Assembly: GCA_013813435.1 (NCBI GenBank)
Contig: JACCRS010000216.1
Location: forward strand, 1-47,203
Reading direction: 5' to 3'
Length of the DNA: 47,203 nt
Source of the DNA: Gemmatimonadales bacterium
Lineage (GTDB): Bacteria > Gemmatimonadota > Gemmatimonadetes > Gemmatimonadales > GWC2-71-9
Each line of letters starts with the position of its first letter. Positions within the stretch are counted from its first letter, which is position 1. The position numbers and the translations under genes are program-made. Below are positions 5,779 through 37,250 of the stretch, in pieces. The notes under the pieces are model-generated. The model did no database searches and was not told the origin of the DNA. It saw only the letters and a list, made by a program, of their open reading frames with translations.

Positions 5779-6732
5779 ATGTTCCGGCACCACCCAATAC
5801 CATTCCTGACTTTGACTGCCGCCTTTGCGGTGGGCTCGGCCGCCTGCAGCCCCCGCGACACCGCCGACCGCAGTGCCAGCGTGGGCGACACCGCCGCCGC
5901 CGGCGACAAGTCCGCGGCCGGCTCTCGCATGGCAACCAAGACCGGCGAAGTCCGCGACCTCCAGGCCCCCGAGGCCGCGCGCTGGGACTTCGACCAGAAC
6001 GTCTGGTTCGTGGCCAACATCAACGGCGATCCCTTCGGCAAGGACAACAACGGCTTCATCGCCCGGCTCACCGCCGACGGCAAGGTGGACTCGCTCAAGT
6101 TCATCGCCGGGGGCAGGAGCGGCGCCACCCTGAACGCACCGAAGGGAATGGCGATAACCGGTGACACTCTCTGGGTGGCCGACATCGATGCCGTTCGCGC
6201 ATTCAACAAGCGCACCGGGGCACCTGCCGGCTCGGTGAGGGTGCCCGGCGCCAAGTTCCTCAATGACATCACCGCAGGGCCGGACGGCACGCTGTACATC
6301 ACCGATTCCGGCCTGGGTCCCAACTTCTCACACCCGGGGCCCGACCGCATCTACCAGATCAAGAGCGGCAAGGCCACGGTGGCCTTCGAGTCGCCCGACC
6401 TCGCAGCGCCCAACGGCATCACGTTCATGGACGACGCACTGCTGGTGGTGCCGTTCATGGGCACCAACCTGGTTGCCTGGAGCCCAGGGGAGAAATCCGT
6501 ACGGACCATCGGCACCGGACCGGGCCAGCAGGATGGAATCGAGATCCTGCCCGACAACCGCTTGCTGGTCACCAGCTGGACCGACTCCAGCCTGTTCCTG
6601 GTGGATGACGGCAAGGCAACCAGGATCGCCCACCCGGTTCCCTCCCCGGCGGACATCGGATTCGACGGCAAGTCACGGGTGGCCGTCCCGCTCCTGATGG
6701 AGAACCGGGTCGAGTTCTGGGAGCTACCATGA
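5779..6732 (+). CDS. SMP-30/NHL-type beta-propeller lipoprotein
   Basis: Lipobox-like AVGSAACS after signal peptide; repeated D-G-T-L-Y-I-T-D style blades; ATG 5779 chosen over TTG 5749. Confidence 0.7.
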   Translation: MFRHHPIPFLTLTAAFAVGSAACSPRDTADRSASVGDTAAAGDKSAAGSRMATKTGEVRDLQAPEAARWDFDQNVWFVANINGDPFGKDNNGFIARLTADGKVDSLKFIAGGRSGATLNAPKGMAITGDTLWVADIDAVRAFNKRTGAPAGSVRVPGAKFLNDITAGPDGTLYITDSGLGPNFSHPGPDRIYQIKSGKATVAFESPDLAAPNGITFMDDALLVVPFMGTNLVAWSPGEKSVRTIGTGPGQQDGIEILPDNRLLVTSWTDSSLFLVDDGKATRIAHPVPSPADIGFDGKSRVAVPLLMENRVEFWELP

Positions 6733-7598
6733 GAACCCTGCGTGCTCGGGCCGGTGCGGCCGCTACCTACGTTCTCATCGGACTGCTGGCGCTTCTGATC
6801 GGCGCGGCGGCGATGTGGACCTACAAAGGTGAAAGGGGCGAATCAGCCCTGAGCACTGCGCGTACCGCACCGGGGCAGTCGATGACTCCGGTGCAGCCGG
6901 ACTCGGTCACCACCCACGGCGAGTGGATCTCGATCAAGCGGGGCCGGGATTCGATTCGAGCCTACGTGGCCTATCCCGAGCGGAAGACCAAGGCGCCGGC
7001 CGTCATCGTGATCCACGAGATCTATGGCCTGACCAAGTGGGAGCCGACCGTGGCCGATCGGTTGGCCAAGGAAGGCTACGTTGCCATCCTGCCCGACCTG
7101 CTGTCCTCAAAGCACGGAATCACTCCCGCCGATCCCGATTCCGCCCGCAAGCTGGTGGGACAGCTGGAGCCCAAACGGGTGACCGCCGACCTCGATGCGG
7201 TCTACGCCTACGTGAACAACTTGCCATCCGTCGACCGGGACCGGGTCGGCACCATCGGATTCTGCTGGGGCGGTGGGGAGAGCTTCCGCTATGCCACTAG
7301 CAACCCAAACCTGCGGGCAGCCGTGGTCGCCTACGGTCCCGCTCCCGACACCGCAGCGATGAAGCGGATTCAGGCGCCAGTGCTCGGCATCTACGGCGAG
7401 AACGATGAACGGATCAACGCCAACCTTCCCGACGTCGTGGCGGTGATGCAGTCCGCGGGCAAGACGTTCACATCCGAGGTGTATCCCGCCACCGGGCACG
7501 GCTTCCTGAAGCCGGGCCGGCAGGGGTACGACACACCGGAGCGGGAGAAGGCGTGGACCCGAATCCTGGAGTTTTATCGGGCCAGGCTGGGGAAATAA
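6729..7598 (+). CDS. Dienelactone hydrolase family protein
   Basis: VIVIHEIYGL, GTIGFCWGGG nucleophile elbow, GHGF; ATGA overlap with upstream gene. Confidence 0.85.
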   Translation: MRTLRARAGAAATYVLIGLLALLIGAAAMWTYKGERGESALSTARTAPGQSMTPVQPDSVTTHGEWISIKRGRDSIRAYVAYPERKTKAPAVIVIHEIYGLTKWEPTVADRLAKEGYVAILPDLLSSKHGITPADPDSARKLVGQLEPKRVTADLDAVYAYVNNLPSVDRDRVGTIGFCWGGGESFRYATSNPNLRAAVVAYGPAPDTAAMKRIQAPVLGIYGENDERINANLPDVVAVMQSAGKTFTSEVYPATGHGFLKPGRQGYDTPEREKAWTRILEFYRARLGK

Positions 7599-7726
7599 AA
7601 GCGTAAGCGGGAAGGAACAGCGTGAGAGGTAAGCGGGAACACTATGCAGCCTGGGCAGACATTCTTTAGCAGGGGTGTTTCCCGCTCACGCTTCTGCTTT
7701 CCCCGCTCACCGCTTACGCTTTGCTC
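7599..7726. repeat. Inverted 7-nt periodic element B1
   Basis: Left AAGCGTAAGCGGGAAGGAACAGCGTGAGAGGTAAGCGGGAA; right CCCGCTC ACGCTTC TGCTTTC CCCGCTC ACCGCTT ACGCTTT GCTC-ATG. Confidence 0.8.
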
Positions 7727-9286
7727 ATGATCCCCCTCCTCCTGCTGCTGCAAGCGGCGCCGCCGCACGATGCGCTGCACTACGACATCACCCTGATCCC
7801 GAGCGACACCGGCACCCATGTGCTCGGGGAGGTGCAGATCACCTGGCGGCTCGGCTCCACCGCACCGGTCAGAATGCAGCTCGACTCCTCCATGCGGGTC
7901 ATCCGGGTTCTGGTGGACGGCAAGCCCAACACCCGGCTCTCGCGCACGATGTACGCCCGGTCCTCCACCGACATCGACGTCCCCCACCAGAAGCAGCCAG
8001 GAGACTCGATCAGCACCCGGGTACGCTACCGCGGCTTCCCCACTGATGGCCTCATCATCGGCAAGAATGCCTACGGTGAGCGCACCACCTTCGCCGACAA
8101 CTGGCCCAACCGGGCCCACCACTGGTTTCCCACGCCGGATGTCCCGGGAGACAAGGCAGCAGTTTCATTCCACGTCCAGGTGCCGCTCGGTCAACAGGTG
8201 ATCGCCAACGGCGTCCTGGCAAAAATCGATACGCTGCCCTACGGCCATGCGGTGTGGCACTACAACCTGAACACGCCGGTACCGGTTTACACCATGGTGG
8301 TGGGGATAGGACGTCTGGCGCGCACGCCACTCCCCGACGCCGGCTGTGGGGTGAAATGCGTTCCGCTCTCGGTCTGGAGCTACCCCCAAGACTCGGCCTA
8401 CGCCGCCGGCACCGCCTTCGGCCGGGCGGGGCAGATGGTGGATTACTTCAGCAGACTGATCGGCCCGTTTCCCTATCCCGCGCTGGCGCATGTCCAGTCG
8501 ACCACCCGCTACGGCGGGATGGAGAACTCGACCGCGATCTTCTACGATGGGAAGCTCTACCGGGACAAGAAGCTGGGGGAGCCGCTAGTGGCCCACGAAA
8601 CGGCTCACCAATGGTTCGGCGACGCCGTAACCATACGAGAGTGGCCCCACCTGTGGCTCTCCGAGGGGTTTGCCACCTACCTCTCGGCGCTCTGGACTGC
8701 AGATACTCAAGGCGACAGCGCATTTCGAGCGAGGATGAGAAATGCCGCGCTGACCATTTATAAGTCGCCGGACACCGAGCGGGGGGTGGTGGACTCGGCC
8801 ACTTCCGACCTGACGGAGCTGCTCAACAGCAACAGCTACCAGAAAGGAGCCTGGGTCCTGCATCAGCTCCGAGGGATGCTGGGCGACTCCGTCTTCTTCG
8901 GCGGTCTGCGCAGCTATTACGCTGCCTACCGCGACAGTACCGTGGTGTCGTCGGATTTCGCCCGGATAATGTCCGAGGCGGCGGGCCGCGATCTCGACTG
9001 GTATTTCCGGCAGGCACTGACGCAGCCCGGCTATCCGATACTCGACATCCGATGGATGCACAAAGGACAGAAGCTGACGATCCAGGTAGACCAGAGTCAG
9101 AAGACGGGATGGGGAGCTTACCGCATCCCCAACCTGCAGCTGCTGATCGACGGGAAAGTGGTACCCATTGAGGTGCAGGGTCGTACCACGAGAACGGCGA
9201 TCGATGGCGTTACCCGGCCCAAGAGGATCGATGTGGATCCGGACGGATGGTGGCTTCTCAAGAGTACAGTGAGAAGTGAGAAGTAA
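7727..9286 (+). CDS. M1 family metallopeptidase (aminopeptidase N-like)
   Basis: HETAHQWFGDAV...EWPHLWLSEGFATY = HEXXH-X18-E; GGMENS. Confidence 0.9.
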   Translation: MIPLLLLLQAAPPHDALHYDITLIPSDTGTHVLGEVQITWRLGSTAPVRMQLDSSMRVIRVLVDGKPNTRLSRTMYARSSTDIDVPHQKQPGDSISTRVRYRGFPTDGLIIGKNAYGERTTFADNWPNRAHHWFPTPDVPGDKAAVSFHVQVPLGQQVIANGVLAKIDTLPYGHAVWHYNLNTPVPVYTMVVGIGRLARTPLPDAGCGVKCVPLSVWSYPQDSAYAAGTAFGRAGQMVDYFSRLIGPFPYPALAHVQSTTRYGGMENSTAIFYDGKLYRDKKLGEPLVAHETAHQWFGDAVTIREWPHLWLSEGFATYLSALWTADTQGDSAFRARMRNAALTIYKSPDTERGVVDSATSDLTELLNSNSYQKGAWVLHQLRGMLGDSVFFGGLRSYYAAYRDSTVVSSDFARIMSEAAGRDLDWYFRQALTQPGYPILDIRWMHKGQKLTIQVDQSQKTGWGAYRIPNLQLLIDGKVVPIEVQGRTTRTAIDGVTRPKRIDVDPDGWWLLKSTVRSEK

Positions 9287-9384
9287 GAAGGGTTGTCACC
9301 TTCGCTACGCCACGGCTCAGGGGGACAAACATTTTTCCCGCTCACCGCTCACGCCTTTGCTCTTCCCGCTCACTCTTCTTCTCA
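9269..9384. repeat. Inverted 7-nt periodic element B2
   Basis: GTGAGAA GTGAGAA GTAAGAA (9269-9289); CCCGCTC ACCGCTC ACGCCTT TGCTCTT CCCGCTC ACTCTTC (9337-9378). Confidence 0.75.
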
Positions 9385-10109
9385 TCGCCGCCTGCGATCC
9401 GACGCTGCCGCCTCTGCGCGGCCAGATGGAGATCGGGCAGGACGGTTATGGCGTCTTCGTCGGAGGTCCAGCACTCAACGGCGACCTTTACGCGGTCCGG
9501 CCCGATGGTGGGCCACCGGTTCGAATCACTTTCACCAACGTCGCCGAGCTGTGGCCCGCGCTCTCGCCTGATGGCGGGGGGCTGGCATTTCTTCGAGGCA
9601 CATCGCTGCGTGACTCGACGCCGGCGACGGTCTGGCTGATGAACCTGCTGAGCGGTGCCGAGCGGGAGATGGCGCTTCCCAGGGGTGCCGGGCCGCCGGT
9701 CAGGGTAGGCTGGGAGCCGGGTGGGAGCTCATTGATTGTATCCACCGCGGATGGATTCTACCGGATCAGTACACCCCCGGCGGCGCCCGATGCGCGCCCG
9801 GTCCCGCCCCCGGAACGGGCAGAGGCCGAATCGAGCCTGGCGGTGCTGTTGGGAGATCCGGTATTTGCCGGCGTCGTGCGGTGCGAGAACGCCGCTGATC
9901 TCTGCGTAAGCGGCGACAGTGGCTCCGCGCTACTGGCCCGCGGGGCGCGCGACCCGGTGCGGTGGGGTTCGGACTCGGTCGGGTTCTTCGTTGGCGACAA
10001 TTTCGAGATTCGCCCGTTGCGTGCCGGACGCCCGCGCCGGCTGACGTGGTCCAGGCCGCCGGAGCGGCCGCGGGAGATGACGTTCTTTTCTGGAAAGCGT
10101 GAGCGGTAA
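9276..10109 (+). CDS. Beta-propeller (TolB/WD40-like) lipoprotein; start uncertain (GTG 9276 or TTG 9357)
   Basis: LLLIAAC lipobox; VRPDGGPPVRITFTNVAELWPALSPDGGGLAFLR. Confidence 0.65.
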   Translation: MRSKKGCHLRYATAQGDKHFSRSPLTPLLFPLTLLLIAACDPTLPPLRGQMEIGQDGYGVFVGGPALNGDLYAVRPDGGPPVRITFTNVAELWPALSPDGGGLAFLRGTSLRDSTPATVWLMNLLSGAEREMALPRGAGPPVRVGWEPGGSSLIVSTADGFYRISTPPAAPDARPVPPPERAEAESSLAVLLGDPVFAGVVRCENAADLCVSGDSGSALLARGARDPVRWGSDSVGFFVGDNFEIRPLRAGRPRRLTWSRPPERPREMTFFSGKRER

Positions 10110-10141
10110 CTGCAAAGAGCGTGAGCGGTAGGCGGGAAAGG
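10099..10141. repeat. 7-nt periodic element B3 (purine arm)
   Basis: GTGAGCG GTAACTG caaagagc GTGAGCG GTAGGCG GGAAAGG. Confidence 0.65.
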
Positions 10142-10224
10142 TTGTCTCGTGCTCAGGTGACATGGGGGTAGCCCACCGGCTAGTTTCCGGCACTTTTCTC
10201 CTTTCCTCTCTCCCGGATTCGGTG

Positions 10225-23329: not shown

Positions 23330-24553
23330 GTGCGACTCCACCCTTTCGACGCGCTTCGCCCCCGCCCAGAGCTGGCGCCTCAGGTGGCTGCCGTCCCCTA
23401 CGATGTTGTGAGCCGGCAGGAGGCCGCCCAGCTGGCGCAGGGGAATCCCCACAGCTTCCTTCACGTCGGACGCTCGGACATAGACCTCCCTGAGGATGTC
23501 GATGCCCATGATTCGCGGATTTACCGCCAGGCTCGCGAAGCATTGGATTCGTTTGTCGCTGGCTCTATTCTGGTTCGGGAGGGCGCGCCGGCGCTTTATC
23601 TCTATCGCCAGATCATGAATGGCCGGGCCCAGACCGGGCTGGTCGGGTGCGTCCACATCGACGATTATGAGCACAACGTCATTCGCAAGCACGAGAAGAC
23701 TCGCCAGGACAAGGAGGACGACCGCACCAGGCATGTGCTGACGTTGGGGGCACACGCCGAGCCCGTGTTCCTGACCTACGCCAGGCGTCCTGAGGTGGAG
23801 GTGCTTTACCAGCCGGTGCTCCTGACGGATCCCCTCTATGACTTCTCGGCTCCCGACGGGGTTCGGCACACAGTCTGGCGGATCTCCGATCCCGGGACCT
23901 GGATCGATGCGTTCCGCTCGGTGCCGCACGCCTACGTGGCCGATGGCCACCATCGCTCAGCCAGCGCATGGCGCGCCGGCCGGGAGCGCCGCAACTCCAA
24001 TCCGACCCACCGGGGCGACGAGGAGTACAACTGGTTTCTAGCGGTACTTTTTCCGCACGATCAGCTCCGAATTCTGCCCTACAACCGGGCGGTACGAGAT
24101 CTGGGAGGAAAGTCGCCCGCCGCCGTGCTCCAGGCCTTGAGACAGTTGGGTGAGATGTCGCAGACCGATGATCCGCGTCCGTCACAGCCCGGGACATTTT
24201 GCGTCTATCTCGCGAAGACCTGGTACCGGGTCGAGCTCGACGAAACCAGCATTCAGCGCCACGATCCGATCGGGTCGCTCGACGTGTCGTTGCTGCAGGA
24301 CCGGGTTCTGGGGCCCATTCTGGGAATCGGCGATCCCCGGACGGACGCACGGCTCGACTTTGTGGGTGGCATCCGGGGTACGGCCGAGCTCGAGCGGCGG
24401 GTGGACGCGGGCGAGATGGCAATCGCGTTTTCGTTGTATCCAACCACGCTGGATCAGCTGATGGCGGTCTCCGACGCCGGCGCTATAATGCCGCCCAAGA
24501 GCACCTGGTTCGAGCCCAAGCTGCGGAGTGGGTTGTTTGTGCATACGTTTTAG
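23330..24553 (+). CDS. DUF1015 family protein
   Basis: VRLHPFDALRPRPELAPQVAAVPYDVVSRQEAAQLAQGNPHSFLHVGRSDIDL; YVADGHHRSASAW. Confidence 0.85.
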   Translation: MRLHPFDALRPRPELAPQVAAVPYDVVSRQEAAQLAQGNPHSFLHVGRSDIDLPEDVDAHDSRIYRQAREALDSFVAGSILVREGAPALYLYRQIMNGRAQTGLVGCVHIDDYEHNVIRKHEKTRQDKEDDRTRHVLTLGAHAEPVFLTYARRPEVEVLYQPVLLTDPLYDFSAPDGVRHTVWRISDPGTWIDAFRSVPHAYVADGHHRSASAWRAGRERRNSNPTHRGDEEYNWFLAVLFPHDQLRILPYNRAVRDLGGKSPAAVLQALRQLGEMSQTDDPRPSQPGTFCVYLAKTWYRVELDETSIQRHDPIGSLDVSLLQDRVLGPILGIGDPRTDARLDFVGGIRGTAELERRVDAGEMAIAFSLYPTTLDQLMAVSDAGAIMPPKSTWFEPKLRSGLFVHTF

Positions 24554-24671
24554 AAGCGTCTAGGGTCTAGGGTCAAGAGTCTACGCTTCGACCGTCAACT
24601 CGGGTCGGTCGACTCAGGCTTAGACCCTTGACCCTGGACTCTAGACCCTAGACCCTAGACTCTGGACCCTA
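24554..24671. repeat. Inverted 7-nt periodic element C
   Basis: AAGCGTC TAGGGTC TAGGGTC AAGAGTC (24554-24581) vs GACCCTT GACCCTG GACTCTA GACCCTA GACCCTA GACTCTG GACCCTA (24623-24671). Confidence 0.9.
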
Positions 24672-24699
24672 GGCTCGTGGTTCATCTCTCGGAGCATCG

Positions 24700-25917
24700 A
24701 TGAAGGTTCTTGTAGCAGACAAATTCGAGAAGGTTGGTATTGACGGTCTCAAGGACCTCGGCTGCACCGTTGTGTCCGAGCCTGAGGTGAAGTCGGATGC
24801 GCTTCCCGAGCTGATTGGGCGGATCGATCCCCACATTCTGATCGTCCGGAGCAAGAAGGTAAATGCCGACGCTTTGCGGGCCGGCACGGCGCTTACGCTC
24901 GTGATTCGAGCTGGCGCCGGCATCGACACGATCGACGTCGCGTCGGCATCCGCTCTTGGCGTGTTCGTCTCCAACTGCCCCGCTAAGAACTCGATCGCCG
25001 TGGCGGAGCTGGTGCTGGGATTGCTGCTCGCCTGCGACCGGCGCATTCCGGACCAGGTGGTGGAGTTGCGGGAAGGCAAATGGAACAAGGCCTCATACTC
25101 CAAGGCGCGTGGACTCTACGGCCGAACCCTTGGGATCGTGGGTCTTGGGCAAATCGGCCGGGAGGTGGCCCTACGAGCCCGCGCGTTTGGCATGCGGGTG
25201 ATGGCCTGGTCCAGGAGTCTCACACACGAAGAGGCTGAACGACTAGGGATAACCTACGCTCAGACACCGCTGGAGGTGGCTCGCGACGCCGATGCCGTCA
25301 CTATTAACGTCGCCGCCAATACCGACACCAGGAACCTGGTCGATGCGGAGTTTTTGGCGGCCATGAAGCCGGGGGCGTATCTCATCAACACCGCACGGGG
25401 ATCGGTAATCGATGAAGCGGCTTTGGCGCAGGCCGTACGCGACAAGGGGATCCGGGCTGGCCTCGACGTCTTCCAGAATGAGCCCACCGGAGGGAAGGGC
25501 GAGTTCTCCAATGCGTTGGTTCAGATTCCGGGGGTGTATGGGACTCATCATGTGGGCGCGTCCACCGATCAGGCGCAGGTGGCCATCGCGCACGAAGTGA
25601 TCCGGATCGTTCAGTCGTTTCAGACAACCGGCGAGGTTCCCAACGCGGTCAACCGTCTGGCGCGGAGCTCGGCGACTCACGTGCTCACCATCCGGCACCG
25701 AAACCGCCCGGGTGTGCTGGCCCACGTCTTTGGCGTGCTCGCCGGCGCCTCGATCAATGTCGAAGAGGTCGAGAATATCATATATCACGGGGCGCAGGCC
25801 ACCCTGGCCCGTATCCACCTCGACGGGTGCCCCGAGGGGACCACGCTAACACAGATCCGGGAGGGGAACCCGGATATCATCAGTGCGGACCTGAGCGAGC
25901 TGAATGGCCGGAAGTGA
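24700..25917 (+). CDS. serA: D-3-phosphoglycerate dehydrogenase with C-terminal ACT-like domain
   Basis: GLGQIGREVALRARAFGMRVMAW, NTARGSVIDEAAL, THHVGASTDQAQ, ACT region THVLTIRHRNRPGVLAHVFGVL. Confidence 0.9.
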   Translation: MKVLVADKFEKVGIDGLKDLGCTVVSEPEVKSDALPELIGRIDPHILIVRSKKVNADALRAGTALTLVIRAGAGIDTIDVASASALGVFVSNCPAKNSIAVAELVLGLLLACDRRIPDQVVELREGKWNKASYSKARGLYGRTLGIVGLGQIGREVALRARAFGMRVMAWSRSLTHEEAERLGITYAQTPLEVARDADAVTINVAANTDTRNLVDAEFLAAMKPGAYLINTARGSVIDEAALAQAVRDKGIRAGLDVFQNEPTGGKGEFSNALVQIPGVYGTHHVGASTDQAQVAIAHEVIRIVQSFQTTGEVPNAVNRLARSSATHVLTIRHRNRPGVLAHVFGVLAGASINVEEVENIIYHGAQATLARIHLDGCPEGTTLTQIREGNPDIISADLSELNGRK

Positions 25918-26076
25918 GTCGGGATTCAGGAGTCTGGAGTCTCGACAATCCCACCACCTCCCCCGATCTTCTGGTGAAGCCGCTTTGCGCCTTGGGAGTT
26001 TCAGCTACTCCCCAACTCCCGACTCCCGACTCCCGACTCCCGACTCCTGACTCCTGACTCCCGACTCCCGACTCCT
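25916..26076. repeat. Inverted 7-nt periodic element D
   Basis: GAGTCGG GATTCAG GAGTCTG GAGTCTC (25916-25943) vs eight in-phase GACTCCC/T units (26021-26076) ending at the serC ATG. Confidence 0.9.
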
Positions 26077-35727: not shown

Positions 35728-37185
35728 GTGGCATCCGGCCGAGCTTCACGCAAGAACGTCGATCTGGGTGTTGGCTGCGTCGTCCTTTTCCTGATTCCCT
35801 TTGCGGCCATCGGGGCGTTCATGGCCGTGATAGCCGTCCAGCGGGCTGCCGCCAGGAACTGGTCCGACGCGCTCTTCCTCGCTCTCGTCGCGATCACGTT
35901 CGGTGGCGTAGGACTTGGCGGGATAGCCGCCGTTCTCGCAGGCCGGCGCAGGCTGAAGGAACAGGCGGCGCTCGAAGCCAGCCAACCGGATTCACCCTGG
36001 CTGTGGCGGCCCGACTGGGCCTCAGGACGGATCCTCGATGCCAGCCGGGTAACCATGTTCGCGGCTTGGATTTTCGCTGCGCTGTGGAATCTGATCAGCT
36101 TTCCGGCCGGCTTTCTTGGAGTGCGTGCGGCGATTGAGGAAAACAAGCCCGCCGCTCTTCTCGCCCTGCTCTTCCCCCTGGTGGGCCTGGGATTGCTGGT
36201 CTGGGCCGTGCGCTCGACCTTGCGATACCGCAGGTACGGCGCGTCACGGCTCGAGCTTTCCAGCGTTCCCTGCGTCATTGGCCGCACCATGGTTGGGATG
36301 GTGCGCGCCCCCGCCCGCATGCAGCCCGACGATGGATTTCAAGTCACGCTCAGCTGTGTACGGCTGGTGACGACGGGAGGGGGAGAGGACCGGCCGACCT
36401 CGGAGCGCATCCTATGGCAGGAGGAGCAGCGGGTCGTGGGGGAGCCGAGCCGCACCGCCACGGCAATGGAAACACACATCTCCGTGGCCTTTCGGCTCCC
36501 GGCTGATGCTGAACCGTGCGACGATAGCGATCCGGACAGCCGGGTTGTCTGGCGGCTTCACCTCACGGGAAGTATGCCCGGTGTCGACTACCAGTCGCAT
36601 TTCGAGGTCCCGGTGTTCCGGACCCCGGCAAGCGATCAGCCGCTGTCAGCGGACGAGAAGAGGATCACTCAGGCAGCACACACTGACGCAGACTATCAGC
36701 AGCCGCTCGACTCGCGCATCGTGGTCACTTCAAACACCCGCGGCACGGAGATCCTGTTTCCCGCTGCCCGGAATCCGGGTGCCGCAACCAGCCTGACACT
36801 ATTCCTTCTCTTGTGGCTCGGGTGCATCGCGCTCCAGATGTATTTCCATGCACCTCTCCTGTTTCCAATCGTCACCGGGCTCTTTGGTGTGCTGATTCTG
36901 ACTGGAGTGCTCGACTTGTGGCTTGAAGTATCGCGGGTGAGCGTGGACGCGGGGACTCTCACGTGGGCGATGGGATTGATCTTTCCGGCGGGTGAGCACA
37001 CGGTCGGCGCCTCCGAGATTGCGGGCGTCACCGCTTCGATCGGCATGCAGGCGGGAACTACACCGTACTACGATGTTGAAATCGTTCGGCAGAACGGCAA
37101 GAAGATCAAGGTGGGTCGCTCGGTGCGAAACAAGCAGGAGGCCGAGTGGCTGGCGAGGAAGATCAGGGAAGCTATCAGCGCTTAG
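35728..37185 (+). CDS. Membrane protein of unknown function (DUF3592-like region possible)
   Basis: Multiple TM segments; GTG start after the sulfurtransferase stop. Confidence 0.6.
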   Translation: MASGRASRKNVDLGVGCVVLFLIPFAAIGAFMAVIAVQRAAARNWSDALFLALVAITFGGVGLGGIAAVLAGRRRLKEQAALEASQPDSPWLWRPDWASGRILDASRVTMFAAWIFAALWNLISFPAGFLGVRAAIEENKPAALLALLFPLVGLGLLVWAVRSTLRYRRYGASRLELSSVPCVIGRTMVGMVRAPARMQPDDGFQVTLSCVRLVTTGGGEDRPTSERILWQEEQRVVGEPSRTATAMETHISVAFRLPADAEPCDDSDPDSRVVWRLHLTGSMPGVDYQSHFEVPVFRTPASDQPLSADEKRITQAAHTDADYQQPLDSRIVVTSNTRGTEILFPAARNPGAATSLTLFLLLWLGCIALQMYFHAPLLFPIVTGLFGVLILTGVLDLWLEVSRVSVDAGTLTWAMGLIFPAGEHTVGASEIAGVTASIGMQAGTTPYYDVEIVRQNGKKIKVGRSVRNKQEAEWLARKIREAISA

Positions 37186-37250
37186 CTATCAGCTATTGTC
37201 ATTGGAGCAGGTTCGCCCGCCCATGACTATAGCCGATAGCTAATGACTTA
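37169..37250. repeat. Inverted 7-nt periodic element E between convergent genes
   Basis: TTAGCTATCAGCTATTGTCATTGG (37182-37205) vs reverse complement of 37220-37243, 21/24 matches. Confidence 0.8.

Follow-up and report, generated by a model that had tools for sequence, protein, structure and literature searches.

Inverted heptad arrays at gene boundaries of a Gemmatimonadales genome and their probable occasional absorption into N-terminal signal peptides

Degenerate heptads are known from the cyanobacterial STRR heptamers and from the tRNA-Leu intron, and they can reportedly pair as stems. A precedent for a signal peptide encoded by a repeat is the YPAL/RU-2 repeat at the Yersinia gene YPO1552 (Delihas 2007, PMC2759123; review PMC2229807). 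The Rickettsia palindromic elements (RPE; Ogata et al. 2000, as described in PMC2229807) lie between genes and also occur within conserved protein genes, in frame and tolerated there. The arrays analysed here lie in the gaps of a run of genes for dienelactone hydrolase, M1 peptidase, a lipoprotein and saccharopine dehydrogenase, in this order, and are designated B1, B2 and B3 (Table 1). The reading that we consider probable from the sequences compared is that dispersed intergenic inverted heptad arrays reach both gene boundaries and are occasionally absorbed into tolerant N-terminal signals, without being export-signal cassettes.

The window, i.e., the whole stretch of 47,203 nucleotides that was analysed, is one contig (C201) of the 2.86-Mb draft genome of a soil Gemmatimonadales bacterium, of which 1.07 Mb was sampled together with stretches of relatives. 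The homologous loci belong, where named, to metagenome bins of Gemmatimonadales/Gemmatimonadota, and translation starts at all loci were inferred from sequence. The saccharopine dehydrogenase start is likely ATG 10226, after the B3 array. Elsewhere in the window, inverted arrays at 24553-24676 (unit GTCTAGG) and 25913-26075 (GTCGGGA/GAGTCTG) precede the genes at 24700 and 26077, respectively; both strands of the GTCTAGG unit carry a stop, and no coding sequence (CDS) was found to contain an array of it. At 37181-37244, AGCTATC-like units form an inverted repeat that directly follows the stop of the 35665-37185 gene.

Table 1. Genes and array arms around B1, B2 and B3 (positions in the window)
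Feature	Position	Strand	Content	Support
Dienelactone hydrolase	6729-7598		upstream of B1	
B1 left arm, purine-rich	7598..7639	+	GTRAGCG-type units; adjoins the dienelactone hydrolase stop at 7598	inverted repeats I1-I4; BLAST matches elsewhere in the genome
B1 right arm, pyrimidine-rich	7679..7722	+	predicted untranslated leader of M1 peptidase; M1 frame reads FPLTLLLSPLTAYA	
M1 family peptidase	7727..9286	+	predicted start ATG 7727	Pfam PF01433, E 5e-34
B2 left arm	9268..9290	+	unit AGTGAGA x3.3; holds GTG 9276; gives the last codons of M1 and its TAA stop (9284-9286)	
B2 right arm	9335..9386	+	GCTCACC-type units; encodes SPLTPLLFPLTLLLI, the predicted lipoprotein h-region; holds start candidate TTG 9357	
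Lipoprotein gene	9276..10109	+	start GTG 9276 or TTG 9357; lipobox LIAAC, Cys codon 9393-9395	no Pfam family
B3 array (arms 10095-10141 / 10200-10215)	10095..10215	+	upstream of saccharopine dehydrogenase	

The array stretch gave 27 BLAST matches elsewhere in the genome, which indicates many intergenic copies. In self-reverse-complement alignment 105 of 530 intergenic regions score at least 24, the 99.5% value of the shuffles being 23. Tandem arms were found in 52 regions, with a period of 7 in 29 of them and of 8 in 17, and with many unrelated units; the units are mainly of 7 nt, and relatives of 8-9 nt occur too. Neither the length nor the sequence of an array is fixed: the tandem units form stretches of variable length, the loops vary and the units differ by locus. 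In 46 of the 52 tandem arrays the purine-rich arm precedes the pyrimidine-rich one. Arrays fill the intergenic gap from the upstream stop to the downstream start (median distance 5 nt to the left gene and 13.5 nt to the right one).

Dimers of GTRAGCG number 77 in the host genome, 20 in the relative G006 and 84 in G018, with few or none in most other genomes, and for GTRAACG dimers the corresponding counts are 5, 40 and 122, with 39 in G009. We infer that the arrays spread by slippage together with copying between loci, since slippage within loci would not by itself carry a single unit across the genome. Their position is not conserved between species beyond what independent placement would give, both members being arrayed in 4 of 182 reciprocal-best pairs against an expectation of about 3 (estimated by hand on a partly selected sample). 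Mobilisation of the REP/RAYT type was rejected, as the RAYT Y1 transposase family (PF01797) showed no association with array-rich genomes: it had no match in the array-rich G018, G009, G007 and G008 and two in G000, these being incomplete drafts. Rfam covariance models yielded 0 matches at the gathering score across the window. Hairpins of the CCACGAAGGCACGAAGGACACGAAGG type constitute another repeat class of the host (L104 751-923, L084 3958-4177 and L154 upstream of 7887). A control pattern, the GTRAACGGTRAACG query reversed, gave 17 matches, in G001 alone, suggesting a further genome-specific heptad unit.

The unit length of 7 shares no factor with the codon length of 3, so that translation of a pure heptad array yields one 7-residue cycle whichever frame is used. 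With the unit GTGAGCG this cycle is RSPLTAH on the pyrimidine strand, which is free of stops in every frame, whereas each frame of the purine strand runs into a stop within 21 nt. The arms of the GTRAGCG/GTRAACG type behave likewise: the pyrimidine-rich arm is stop-free in all frames and reads P-L/F-T-A/V-Y/H-R-L/S, and the purine-rich arm has a stop in each frame over the same distance. In line with the purine-strand stops, purine heptad chains (GTRARC) lying near a gene stop begin before the end of the stop codon in 40 of 82 cases, and in 0/82 more than 20 nt inside the gene, with resulting C-termini such as VSGER*, KRER* and VNGER*. The combination of a stop-free pyrimidine arm and a stop-rich purine arm therefore allows arrays to extend into the 3' end of the preceding gene at small cost, which would amount to a few C-terminal residues. 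Of 53 genes with a chain at the 5' end, 45 have it ending short of the start; in the other 8 it extends 26-77 nt inside, and the start of one of these 8 appears to be miscalled. Stop-free units lie inside CDS in 11/70 cases and stop-bearing units in 2/26, a difference in the expected direction that is not significant. Arg codons at the unit junctions (CGY to TGY) were not depleted in coding compared with non-coding arms (p 0.74), which gives no sign of selection on the array-coded peptide. Among 45-46 arms that precede a start, the hydrophobicity of the gene's frame exceeded that of the remaining two by a small margin only (p 0.02-0.03), and a good number of the genes concerned look cytosolic; given this slight excess, our count of translated arms may be too low.

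The initial annotation had read QGCFPLTLLLSPLTAYALLMIPLLLLLQAAPPH in the M1 frame and HFSRSPLTPLLFPLTLLLIAACDPTLPP in the frame of the next gene, and had concluded that the right arms of B1 and B2 encode the same hydrophobic string in frame. The strings are present as written; the conclusion, however, is weakened by the lack of an upstream ATG/GTG/TTG for the B1 arm and by the identical reading of pure heptads in all frames. B1 and B2 themselves are degenerate, so that their frames do differ (frame +1 of B1 gives SRSRFCFPRSPLTLC). The B1 arms are true inverted repeats (13 nt at 100%, 19 nt at 84%) whose hairpin folding beats that of shuffles (z -3.8). After TAG 7667, the start-like codons in frame ahead of the conserved M1 protein are CTG 7694, TTG 7721 and ATG 7727, the last being also the choice of a codon-based gene caller. 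Translation of the array string is unexpected, because between TAG 7667 and TTG 7721 the frame contains no ATG/GTG/TTG, only CTG 7694. From ATG 7727 the product begins MIPLLLLLQAAPPHDALHYD, with a short signal of its own, MIPLLLLLQAA; the M1 orthologs from the same genus and family carry no B1-like array and have short hydrophobic M..LLL..Q starts of like kind, for example MLTLLLALQLAAPQHDALRYD in G007. This separate signal and the array-free orthologs with similar ones argue that B1, on standard start codons, is the untranslated leader of M1; M1 may instead start at CTG 7694, within B1. With the start at ATG 7727, B1 represents the ordinary case, in which the array ends just ahead of the start codon. 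The proposal that the array provides the export signal of M1 is thus not supported, as the predicted start follows the array and is itself followed by a separate non-repeat signal, an outcome that the initial annotation had named as refuting it. Upstream of the G006 ortholog of M1 (L010), the direct repeat ATGCTCTCACTCCTCATACTTC is present twice at the start and duplicates the beginning of the signal peptide.

The left arm of B2 supplies the C-terminus of M1 (..STVRSEK*) and does contain GTG 9276, as the initial annotation had stated. This codon and TTG 9357 are the only in-frame ATG/GTG/TTG codons before the Cys at 9393. The Cys and the PLRG-like motif after it are conserved among the genus orthologs, most of them array-free, and the type II lipobox pattern [LVI][ASTVI][GAS]C is matched by LIAAC at 9381-9395, after the h-region LTPLLFPLTLLL. 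Because only these two starts precede the conserved Cys, the predicted lipoprotein signal must be array-encoded at its h-region whichever of them is used, the right arm having presumably been absorbed in this role. The choice would affect the n-region, for which a positive charge is expected: GTG 9276 gives a long leader of 39 aa beginning MRSKK.., and TTG 9357 one of 12 aa without K/R. The location of the lipoprotein signal in the array, claimed earlier, is borne out in this way and by similar arrangements built on different units in the closest ortholog, that of G006, and in the unrelated DUF1028 protein. In G006 the unit is GTRAACG, and a clean ATG is followed by the right arm, which encodes MKALFTVYCLLFTPLALIAC; in G022 an array of 8-nt units at the equivalent site (inverted-repeat score 52) has a right arm that enters the frame ahead of MLLTGC.

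These loci bear on the possibility, also raised initially, that only the annotation of starts is at fault, the arrays never being translated and every true start lying downstream. This is indeed the appropriate description of B1 and of most genes next to arrays, which start after the array. B2, in contrast, has no start codon between TTG 9357 and the conserved Cys, the ATG in G006 precedes the array arm, and in one DUF1028 ortholog (L257) the protein starts MKGPLTAYCLPLTLLVPALLVAQ from an ATG immediately before an arm, so that we see hardly any room for this explanation as a general one.

The arms of the G006 ortholog form a long, strong hairpin with the ATG in its loop (fold z -5.6), and a hairpin of this form is also found in G009 (z -3.6). 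Such structures, together with the rarity of a Shine-Dalgarno-like motif at array-abutting genes (2/20 vs 343/1002), would suit a hairpin that presents the start codon in its loop and regulates downstream translation, the coding overlap being a by-product. At B2, however, the arms pair poorly (14 nt at 79%) because the left unit is GTGAGAA and the right one GTGAGCG, and the folding is no better than that of shuffles (z -0.15). Arrays also occur between convergent genes, and two DUF1028 orthologs (L257 and L250) keep a right arm with no left arm detected. We therefore regard hairpin regulation as unlikely to account for the arrays.

The DUF1028 protein starts MTALVFLVLTAHRSPPTLFAQ in the host and MLCGAAIAFAPFTVHPLPFTPSSIHAQ in G009, with different units in the two. 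Array-type or arm-only sequence is present in the signal of 6 of 22 orthologs (L250, L251, L252, L254, L256 and L257), and the rest have ordinary signals; L256 has a GGTTCCC-type unit, and L252 appears to be the G009 locus (identical sequence) and so adds no independent support beside it. In the DUF1028 tree the array-bearing members fall within one well-supported clade of 13, with at least 4 gains or losses over the tree. Further array-coded leaders were found in an M19 dipeptidase, a TonB-plug protein, a T2SS pseudopilin and two other proteins, while array overlaps with non-exported products comprise an M16 peptidase, an FAD oxidoreductase and one unknown. The M16 peptidase orthologs of G000 (L199 372-3029(-)) and G018 (L235 3109(+)) both have heptad arrays at the start; the GTG start called in G000 places the arm inside the CDS, and the ATG of G018 comes after the array. 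Two apparent overlaps of array and CDS, L145 7598 and L159 5860, were set aside since they look like wrong start calls.

The array-coded leaders of the B2 lipoprotein, its G006 ortholog, DUF1028, the M19 dipeptidase, the TonB-plug protein and the T2SS pseudopilin might be taken to mean that arrays are modular export-signal sequences for downstream genes, and the arrays that penetrate a CDS do lean towards exported proteins (6/9 families, p 0.05; 5/6 in the heptad family only, p 0.02; small numbers classified by hand). Yet the expected enrichment of exported products next to arrays did not materialise: hydrophobic N-termini were found in 8 of 40 genes preceded by an array at a distance of up to 60 nt and in 275 of 787 genes without one (p 0.06 towards depletion). 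Most array-adjacent genes look cytosolic and start after the array, and good signals are present in the array-free orthologs, which makes a modular export signal highly improbable. The original idea of an intergenic repeat serving as export signal thus survives for B2 and DUF1028, and finds no support for B1 or as a general role. Under the preferred reading of dispersed arrays with occasional absorption, an array would now and then extend into the beginning of the next coding sequence and be taken up there by a signal or leader peptide that tolerates it, and we infer that arrays persist in signal peptides by tolerance rather than benefit.

A broader formulation, which we advance tentatively and at somewhat less than even odds, is that of a frame-independent repeat class, with a unit length coprime with 3, one strand stop-free and the other with stops in all frames, which may repeatedly make gene boundaries into shared repeat-coded C-terminal tails and N-terminal signals, the whole set switching its unit between related genomes. 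The arrays offer a concrete recurring case of non-coding repeats turned export signals, which is possible because the 7-nt unit has one reading in all frames and no stop on the strand facing the next gene. For annotation, they are a warning that strings such as PLTLLL or VSGER* beside genes usually represent repeat boundaries. The array-bearing and array-free orthologs are natural variants for probing signal-peptide tolerance.

Among the described systems, YPAL/RU-2 is an element of ~168 bp with one highlighted case, whereas the Gemmatimonadales arrays are tandem heptads with genome-specific units that recur at orthologous genes. The RPE resemble them as intergenic palindromes tolerated in frame within CDS, but are described as insertions of unique sequence of 105-146 bp within genes, while the arrays are tandem and located at gene boundaries. 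The TAACTGA heptamers of Beggiatoaceae and cyanobacteria (PMC4679880) likewise have 7-nt units directly before start codons and few canonical ribosome binding sites; they are direct repeats of one unit, and inverted arms or coding use are not described in the available text of that source. The GGGNATC-type repeats of Xanthomonas and Nostoc (PMC4692102) are also heptameric intergenic arrays, often near the end of an ORF and with a unit number that varies between relatives; they were studied as G-quadruplex repeats, and the available text does not describe overlap with signal peptides. Not described in the available accounts of these systems are tandem heptads that occupy both gene boundaries and recur, with different units, at orthologous signal peptides.
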